Shown piece after piece: positions 60,391 to 62,400 of a stretch of DNA of 64,000 nt. The stretch's first letter is position 1. The number at the start of each line of letters is the position of its first letter. Position numbers and translations under genes: made by a program. The notes under the pieces were generated by a model that saw nothing but the letters and a program-made list of their open reading frames with translations, did not search any database and had not been told where the DNA came from. The DNA is from Paenibacillus bovis (GTDB taxonomy: Bacteria; Bacillota; Bacilli; Paenibacillales; Paenibacillaceae): NCBI RefSeq assembly GCF_001421015.2, contig NZ_CP013023.1, forward strand, positions 5,252,001 through 5,316,000, given 5' to 3'.

Positions 60391-60640
60391 GTCAAGAGCC
60401 TCCAAAAGTTGTATTTCCGGTAAAAGAGTCTCTTATCACCACACCGTCTGGGCGAATTCACCAATACAGCTGTCTGCATCCCGGGAACGTTACTATCTAT
60501 AGTAGAATTCGCATTTCGTCCAAATGCTCAGATCGTCAAACTCTTATCACGGTCAATCTTTATTAAAATTAGCATACTTACCAGGTGTATTCAACGCTAT
60601 TGTTCGTTATTTGGCGAATATGACATTCATGTAACCAAAC
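60391..60640. other. Gap between murA and mbl where spoIID/spoIIQ/spoIIID would be expected
   Basis: About 250 bases with no coding frame resembling SpoIID, SpoIIQ or SpoIIID on either strand. TTGGAC, 16 bases, TATAGA on the minus strand is a weak candidate for an mbl promoter. No remnant of a degraded gene was recognised. Confidence 0.55.
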
Positions 60641-60668
60641 AAAAAGCCAGACCTCGAAAGGTCTGGCT
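60641..60668 (-). terminator. Intrinsic terminator after murA
   Basis: A perfect 10-bp stem (60645-60654 with 60659-60668, CGAA loop) is followed by TTTTT on the minus strand. Confidence 0.92.
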
Positions 60669-60738
60669 CTCTGTGTTATCTATTCAGCCTCTTCTGTCTT
60701 CTTGCGAAAAACAGAACGACTGGATATTTACAAACGGT

Positions 60739-62100
60739 TTAGACGCCTGTTGGTTGCACGCTCAGCAGTGAAGCGCCAGCCTGTTTTGCTTTTTCAGCAA
60801 AGGAAGCAGTCTGTTCTTCTGATGTGGAAGTTTTGGCTTCGCTATCTTCCAGACGCCAGATATCGGCACCCAGACCGGACAGCTTCTCGGCCAAATGTAC
60901 ATAACCACGGTCGATATGGTGGGTACCACCAACTTCGGTTGTTCCCTCTGCAATCAGACCCGCACAAATTAACGCTGCACCGGCACGAAGGTCAGTTGCA
61001 CACACTTTGGCACCAACCAGGCTTGCGCCTCCCGTAACGATCGAAGTTCTGCCTTCGATACGGATACCTGCGTTCATCAGGTTAAACTCATCGACATGCA
61101 TAAAGCGGTTCTCAAATACAGTCTCGGTAATCACGCTGGTTCCTTCGGAGCCCAGCATAAGTGCCATCATTTGAGCCTGCATATCGGTTGGGAAACCCGG
61201 ATAAGGCAATGTTTTTACATCAACTGCGCGAAGAGGCTGGTTGGCAATAACCTGTACCCCGTTCTCATCAGGAATGATTTCAACGCCCATTTCTTCCATT
61301 TTCGCAATAACAGGGCCCAGATGGTCGGCGATTGCGCCTTCCACGTAGACATTACCGCCAGTAATAGCAGCTGCTACCATATAGGTACCTGCTTCAATAC
61401 GATCCGGAATAACAGTATGCTCGGTCCCTTGAAGTTTCTCTACCCCTTCAATCCGAATAACACCAGTACCGGCTCCACGAACTTTTGCACCCATTCCATT
61501 CAGGAAATTGGCCAGATCTACGATCTCGGGTTCTTTTGCCGCGTTCTCGATTGTAGTGATACCTTCAGCCAGCGTCGCAGCCATCATAATATTCTCGGTT
61601 GCGCCAACACTTGCTACATCGAGATAAATCTTGGTTCCGCGAAGTCTGCCTTCGCATTTGGCTTCAATGTAGCCTTGTCCCAGATTAATCTCGGCACCCA
61701 TCGCTTCAAAACCTTTGAGATGCTGGTCAATTGGACGTGTGCCAATTGCGCATCCTCCAGGTAAAGAAATGCGGGTACGACCCATACGAGTCAAAAGTGG
61801 GCCCATTACCAGAAAAGAGGCACGCATTTTGCTTACCAATTCGTAAGGCGCTTCGCATGAGGACAATTCCTGTGCATCCACATGAATCGTCTCATCCTGG
61901 TATGTAACCACCGCTCCAAGCGATTCCAATACTTTGTTAATCGTCATTACATCGTCTAGGGATGGTGCTTCGTGAATAATACTTGCACCTTTTTCTCCCA
62001 GCAGTGAGGCAGCAATAATTGGTAGAACAGAATTCTTTGCTCCGCTAACCTTGACATTTCCTGTCAATCGCTTGCCACCGCGGACGATAAATTTGCTCAT
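60739..62100 (-). CDS. murA: UDP-N-acetylglucosamine 1-carboxyvinyltransferase
   Basis: First committed step of peptidoglycan synthesis: transfers enolpyruvate to UDP-GlcNAc. The 453-aa protein has the substrate lysine in GAKNSVLPIIAASLL (residue 22) and the catalytic, fosfomycin-reactive cysteine in LPGGCAIGTRPIDQH (residue 117). It ends with about 35 extra residues rich in Ser/Thr/Glu/Ala (SEAKTSTSEEQTASFAEKAK) beyond the usual end. GGAGGG precedes the ATG. The position next to the atp operon and mbl matches MurAA of B. subtilis. Confidence 0.96.
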   Translation of the reverse strand: MSKFIVRGGKRLTGNVKVSGAKNSVLPIIAASLLGEKGASIIHEAPSLDDVMTINKVLESLGAVVTYQDETIHVDAQELSSCEAPYELVSKMRASFLVMGPLLTRMGRTRISLPGGCAIGTRPIDQHLKGFEAMGAEINLGQGYIEAKCEGRLRGTKIYLDVASVGATENIMMAATLAEGITTIENAAKEPEIVDLANFLNGMGAKVRGAGTGVIRIEGVEKLQGTEHTVIPDRIEAGTYMVAAAITGGNVYVEGAIADHLGPVIAKMEEMGVEIIPDENGVQVIANQPLRAVDVKTLPYPGFPTDMQAQMMALMLGSEGTSVITETVFENRFMHVDEFNLMNAGIRIEGRTSIVTGGASLVGAKVCATDLRAGAALICAGLIAEGTTEVGGTHHIDRGYVHLAEKLSGLGADIWRLEDSEAKTSTSEEQTASFAEKAKQAGASLLSVQPTGV

Positions 62101-62400
62101 TAGGGTTCCCTCCGCGCGTCATTTTGCTTATCCGGCATAATAAGTTAAGGAATGAATAGTACAGGAACATGGCGGAGACATGATGGTTCATGATGACTGT
62201 GCCATTAATGTATGATCTATTCGCTCAGATTTATAATGCCCTATTGCATAAATTTTGGTTTTTAATATTTGGTATAGTAGTTGATTATCCTGCGGTCGTC
62301 TCAACATAGAGAGGTACAATGTTGCGCTTTTGAATTCGCATCCTTCAATGCGATACATCATGAAATAAGTCTAAAACACTTATAACCATCCTCTTTACAT
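62101..62400. other. Gap between DUF1146 and murA where ywmB would be expected
   Basis: About 300 bases that contain no frame resembling the YwmB TATA-box-binding-like protein. Only AT-rich non-coding sequence is seen, presumably with the murA promoter, which I could not place. Confidence 0.5.

Follow-up and report, generated by a model that had tools for sequence, protein, structure and literature searches.

The occurrence of Spo0A in bacteria that do not form spores is already known, and 30 such genomes have been counted in one survey (PMC3533761). In the same survey, non-sporogenous bacteria are defined as those that keep most sporulation genes and carry few recent mutations. Paenibacillus bovis has been flagged in another study as a species in which Spo0A is present and all the engulfment proteins tested are undetected, yet which is reported to sporulate (PMC7924749). 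Saccharibacillus is generally described as an endospore-forming genus (PMC9867790), endospores have been reported for P. nicotianae AFI2 (PMC8620400), and terminal round endospores of S. soli O16T were described by phase contrast and malachite green staining (PMC13209792). A BLASTP survey at E 0.05 recorded sigma-E, sigma-F, sigma-G and sigma-K in 100% of 1,460 Paenibacillus genomes (PMC12826061). Searches of the open-licence PMC literature yielded no paper reporting the lack of sporulation genes in Saccharibacillus or the P. nicotianae group; Spo0A-encoding non-spore-formers are known and P. bovis has been singled out, and it is the genus-wide extent of the loss that is unreported in the literature searched.

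The window, i.e., the whole stretch of 64,000 nucleotides analyzed, comes from a P. bovis genome (G000) of 5.517 Mb in two contigs, which is 99.99% complete. The G+C content of the window is 44.9%, and that of Saccharibacillus is about 57%. On the minus strand, the open reading frames of the locus follow the order atpC-like, DUF1146, murA, mbl, flhO, flhP and fabZ-like, with names assigned by eye from the open frames and, for murA and mbl, by Pfam as well. The atpC-like frame (63040-63459, by eye) is followed by the ywzB-like DUF1146 gene (62401-62649; tblastn with the Paenibacillus ottowii protein, E 2e-18), a 300-base gap without ywmB (62101-62400), and murA (60739-62100; EPSP_synthase, E 1.1e-111), whose product is 93-94% identical to the MurA of three members of the genus. 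Between murA and mbl lies a gap of 333 bases (60406-60738), the place of spoIID-spoIIQ-spoIIID in relatives. The mbl frame (59392-60405; MreB_Mbl, E 7.2e-144) was taken from its first possible start, and translation may in fact begin a few codons further in. Then come flhO (58413-59294; tblastn E 9e-104), flhP (57520-58377, by eye and position) and the fabZ-like frame (56562-57026, by eye). Within the 333-base gap, an inverted repeat followed by a T-run 3' of murA (60646-60667, minus strand) is likely, judging from its sequence and position, to be the murA terminator, and a block upstream of mbl that is largely conserved in the six genomes of subclade A, described below (60571-60597, minus strand), is likely to represent the mbl promoter region.

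The original prediction held that spoIID, spoIIQ and spoIIID are missing to the left of murA, and this was borne out. Searches with tblastn, using SpoIID, SpoIIQ and SpoIIID of P. ottowii and YwmB of Bacillus glycinifermentans as queries, returned zero matches in the 64-kb window at E <= 1e-3. With these queries only, convincing gene remnants were also absent from the gaps of the 16 loci of the genus, the best values being E 0.31 over 23 residues for SpoIID, SpoIIQ or SpoIIID and 0.40 for YwmB. For comparison, at least 80 named murA loci were considered, and 47 of those listed belong to Paenibacillaceae other than Brevibacillus. Among the matches listed, 40 of the 47 show the full order murA-spoIID-spoIIQ-spoIIID-mbl, where "SpoIIQ" denotes an M23 peptidase named by its place. 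The seven incomplete cases comprise contig ends (L031, L039, L062, and L067), a locus with spoIID 9 kb away (L049), and two loci without DUF1146 or mbl that look like a different murA place (L053 and L055). In the window's genus, murA and mbl are adjacent without spoIID, spoIIQ and spoIIID in all 16 genomes. Paenibacillus and Cohnella spore-formers share with the window the order DUF1146, murA, mbl, flhO and the absence of ywmB, but differ in having three spo genes between murA and mbl; except for the missing ywmB, carriers of sporulation genes do not show the spo-less layout.

The ywmB part of the prediction fared differently. The gene is indeed absent from the 300-base gap to the right of murA, but among the matches listed for the murA loci, where ywmB was checked, it stands beside murA in 0/47 Paenibacillaceae, as opposed to 2/2 Brevibacillus and 27/31 remaining loci. 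Its absence is therefore the layout of the family rather than a loss of this lineage, and this piece of the argument falls. In five other loci that keep the spo block (L060, L034, L068, L070, and L074), the distance between murA and spoIID is 2.4-5.5 kb rather than a few hundred bases, indicating that other DNA enters the murA-spoIID joint in the family.

The genus of the window is represented in the genome index by 16 genomes, which are 99-100% complete and include at least three single chromosomes. It unites two groups of soil and plant bacteria, the Paenibacillus nicotianae group and Saccharibacillus. Subclade A (G000, G001, G004, G005, G007, and G011) goes with P. nicotianae on the basis of MurA: the G005 protein shares 99.8% identity with its counterpart in Paenibacillus sp. 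PsM32, the G007 protein 99.8% with the one in sp. PK4536 and 98.7% with the one in P. nicotianae, and the window MurA 87-88% with all three. Subclade B (10 genomes) is Saccharibacillus by MurA identity. Identical MurA proteins were found for S. kuerlensis (G012), S. deserti (G009), S. alkalitolerans (G008), S. qingshengii (G003), S. endophyticus (G015), S. sacchari (G006) and the Saccharibacillus strains O23 (G013), JS10 (G014) and CPCC 101409 (G010), while the MurA recorded under the name Saccharibacillus sp. O16 shares 93% identity with the G002 protein; the 16 do not include a genome of S. soli. A MurA+Mbl tree was built from 72 loci, leaving out L048 and L087 (open frame unrecovered) and loci without mbl. 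In it, subclades A and B each received a support of 100 and their union 88, and A+B was nested inside Paenibacillus loci carrying the spo block.

Whole genomes were then examined by six-frame profile searches with curated cut-offs in 39 genomes, namely the 16 of the genus, 8 from other genera of the family and 15 from the order. SpoIIID, SpoIID, sigma-F, SASP (PF00269) and DpaA (TIGR02853) each exceeded the cut-off in 0/16 genomes of the genus vs. 23/23 of the others, with sigma-F matches listed at E <= 1e-60 and two to eight SASP matches in each of the others. The sigma-F search gave a second match, probably sigma-G, in all 23 others and in none of the 16. For SpoIIE, the two best candidates per genome were scored across 394 genomes of the family, and 372 genomes were over the cut-off: none of the 16 in the genus, and 372 of the 378 outside it. 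All 378 of the latter, including the six below the cut-off, matched at E 5.4e-109 or better, as opposed to weak matches far below the cut-off (E 6.0e-11 to 2.5e-15) in the genus. Two sets of weaker hits were rejected as candidates. A below-cut-off SpoIID match in all 16 genomes of the genus, seen in 39/39 genomes overall, is a separate long open frame of about 700-1050 codons in the genus, and below-cut-off DpaA matches in 14/16 belong to other proteins, unrelated or longer. An 820-codon open frame with a SpoIID/LytB-type domain was observed at G000:C1:4690959-4692143, and a like protein occurs in 39/39 genomes. SpoIIQ was examined at the locus only, because M23 peptidases are many.

Taken by itself, the absence of spoIID, spoIIQ and spoIIID from the genome of the window concerns one locus, and it might be argued that sporulation genes were relocated, have diverged too far or fell into assembly gaps. 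We find this scarcely credible. The same profile searches recover SpoIIID, SpoIID, sigma-F, SASP and DpaA in B. subtilis as well as in 23/23 relatives, yet nothing over the cut-off in 16/16 six-frame translated genomes, whose completeness speaks against assembly gaps, as do the single chromosomes of three or more of them. The suggestion of a relocated programme was accordingly rejected, as no spoIID or spoIIID was found elsewhere. With six marker families at 0/16 and spoIVB missing from 16/16 genomes, the genus does not retain the large sporulation gene set that marks the non-sporogenous bacteria of PMC3533761; the genes examined amount to about 10 of roughly 120 core sporulation genes, and relatives were called spore-formers by gene content. 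On this gene content, the asporogenous lineage, one of the two alternatives offered in the original prediction, is strongly supported at the genome level. We thus believe, with a probability of roughly 0.88, that the window belongs to an asporogenous genus, made up of the P. nicotianae group and Saccharibacillus and nested among Paenibacillaceae that bear sporulation genes, in which the execution genes were deleted and the switch was kept.

The sigma factors of the window's own genome are in line with this reading. All 20 proteins with a sigma-70 region 2 were scanned against the sigma families, and among the strong matches listed none was over the cut-off for sigma-E, sigma-F, sigma-G or sigma-K. 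Sigma-H reached 369 bits against a cut-off of 294.8, and the other proteins are sigma-A, FliA-type, ECF types and a sigma-B-like protein below the sigma-B cut-off. Sigma-E, sigma-K and sigma-H were assessed in this genome only. The original prediction had proposed a search of the whole genome as its check; there, SpoIIE, SpoIID and SpoIIID remain below the cut-off throughout the genus, and no protein over the cut-off for sigma-E or sigma-K was found in the genome of the window. These results conflict with the published claim of sporulation sigma factors in all 1,460 Paenibacillus genomes, among which genomes of the P. nicotianae group are likely to be found. The sigma-F of G019, a relative bearing sporulation genes, matched 10 of the 20 sigma proteins of P. 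bovis below E 0.05, including sigma-A at E 3.8e-27 and the sigma-B-like protein at E 1.3e-26, so that BLASTP at E 0.05 would score sigma-F as present in this genome and cannot show its absence. With a lax homology cut-off, sigma-E, F, G and K can hence seem to occur throughout Paenibacillus, though some members lack at least sigma-F.

The cleanness of the loss was also evident at other loci. The spoIVB gene lies between recN and spo0A in 7/7 relatives examined and in 0/16 genomes of the genus, and the spacing between the recN and spo0A matches is 1647-1722 bases in the seven relatives vs. 327-462 in the 16. A 73-kb stretch of the P. bovis genome is collinear with 60 kb of G019, with insertions on both sides, and lacks spoIVB, spoIIM, a GerA-like germination protein, spoIIAA with sigF, and the spoIIIA operon at the places that they occupy in G019. 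In the latter genome AA, AE, AG and AH of the spoIIIA operon were identified and spoIIAA was named by eye; of the genes lacking here, spoIVB and sigF alone were also checked beyond the 73-kb stretch. An aspartokinase-like gene (AA_kinase and ACT domains; G000:C1:4012451-4013785, L175:9451-10785) sits beside accB at the place of the spoIIIA operon. Such a pattern would be expected if the sporulation execution genes had been deleted and the adjoining housekeeping genes left in place.

Our analysis revealed a different picture for the Spo0A switch. The Spo0A C-terminal domain is present in 39/39 genomes, including 16/16 of the genus, and the spo0A gene of P. bovis scores 408.9 bits with TIGR02875 (cut-off 200). 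SPOB_a, a family that also matches in genomes without Spo0B, was found in 39/39 genomes, its best match lying in an open frame of 247-321 codons in 16/16 genomes of the genus. The gene order is rplU-ysxB-rpmA-spo0B-obgE in P. bovis (by eye) and rplU-ysxB-rpmA-spo0B in S. brassicae. Spo0E-like proteins also occur in 39/39 genomes. A strict 0A box motif was found upstream of spo0A in 16/16 genomes vs. 0.03-0.06 expected when mononucleotides are shuffled; 6/6 genomes of subclade A have two boxes at a distance of 26 bases, and 7/7 relatives a similarly spaced pair, while a single box precedes spo0A in 10/10 genomes of subclade B. Since Spo0A, its 0A boxes, the Spo0B-type and Spo0E-like proteins and, in the genome of the window, sigma-H are kept while the execution genes tested are gone, the loss begins just downstream of Spo0A, leaving the switch and its feedback site in place.

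Spo0A is known in other non-spore-formers (PMC3533761), and it could be supposed that Spo0A and its partners are functionless relics of a recent loss. This appears very unlikely, given that dN/dS of spo0A is 0.017-0.057 in nine of ten pairs within the genus (the tenth being saturated, dS exceeding 1 in two of the nine, and no control gene being included), that the 0A boxes are kept throughout, and that extra copies of Spo0A occur in 4/6 genomes of subclade A. Under the deletion scenario, the retained switch might now serve transition-state outputs other than sporulation, e.g., biofilm or stationary-phase control.

Three Spo0A proteins of P. bovis exceed the cut-off: the orthologue beside recN (G000:C1:3997504-3997815, L161), an extra copy near a glnA-like gene (G000:C1:3628052-3628363, L162:8025-8936) and another on the 163-kb second contig (G000:C2:26124-26435, L160:9632-10459). 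Two Spo0A genes each were observed in G001, G004, and G011. No 0A box was found upstream of any of the five extra genes. The second contig (L160, L163) also encodes a Spo0E-like protein (C2:66414-66533), an actin-like partition protein and a peptide-receptor-like protein (both by eye), as well as an anti-restriction protein and a DNA methyltransferase (by PHROGs). It may be a plasmid acting on the Spo0A network of its host; a search of 20 kb of its 163 kb in a plasmid collection, from which records near G000 were possibly excluded, returned nothing.

Regarding the history of the loss, the deletions would have taken place once, on the stem of the clade. Two independent losses, one in the P. nicotianae group and one in Saccharibacillus, are unlikely but deserve some weight. 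The two subclades sit on long branches joined with a support of only 88, a value that does not settle one loss vs. two; the stop codon of murA and the beginning of the Mbl match are 333-382 bases apart in subclade A vs. 192-206 in subclade B, the gaps also differing in sequence; and a small Spo0A tree does not unite the sequences of the two subclades. However, gaps of such age would diverge regardless, the genome index places both subclades in one genus, and the same markers are missing and the same ones kept in both.

The genus-wide loss also conflicts with the endospore reports for Saccharibacillus and P. nicotianae. These reports, together with that for P. bovis as cited in PMC7924749 and the retained Spo0A switch, could be reconciled with the genomes if the clade formed spore-like resting bodies by a programme without classical sigma factors or spore proteins. 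We consider this highly improbable. SASP, DpaA, SpoIIE, SpoIID and sigma-F are absent in the 16 genomes, and the word "heat" appears 0 times in the main text of PMC13209792, so that a heat test is not described there. Inclusions, contamination or wording inherited from descriptions of Paenibacillus would also account for the reports. Equally improbable, in our opinion, is that the endospore-like bodies are real and Spo0A-controlled without sigma-F, SpoIIE, SASP or dipicolinate synthase, which would represent a second route to a resting cell. If the loss of the execution genes is true, Saccharibacillus and the P. nicotianae group should be tested for heat resistance or dipicolinate before they are labelled as endospore-forming. 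The genus would also offer a clean natural experiment, in which the switch is still under selection and its classical output is gone as far as tested, so that the non-sporulation Spo0A regulon could be studied free of interference from sporulation.

By gene content, the genus has the features of the asporogenous Spo0A-encoding Firmicutes of PMC3533761, with spo0A present and sspA-type SASP and dpaA absent. It resembles Macrococcus caseolyticus of that survey, in which Spo0A is encoded and sporulation-specific genes are largely absent. However, the present case concerns a whole free-living genus with genomes of 4.3-6.3 Mb within Paenibacillaceae, which has retained the 0A-box promoter as well as Spo0B-type and Spo0E-like proteins. 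There is also a likeness to P. bovis as described in PMC7924749, a reported spore-former with Spo0A present and the tested engulfment proteins undetected; that study covers one species, while the loss described here extends over 16 genomes.
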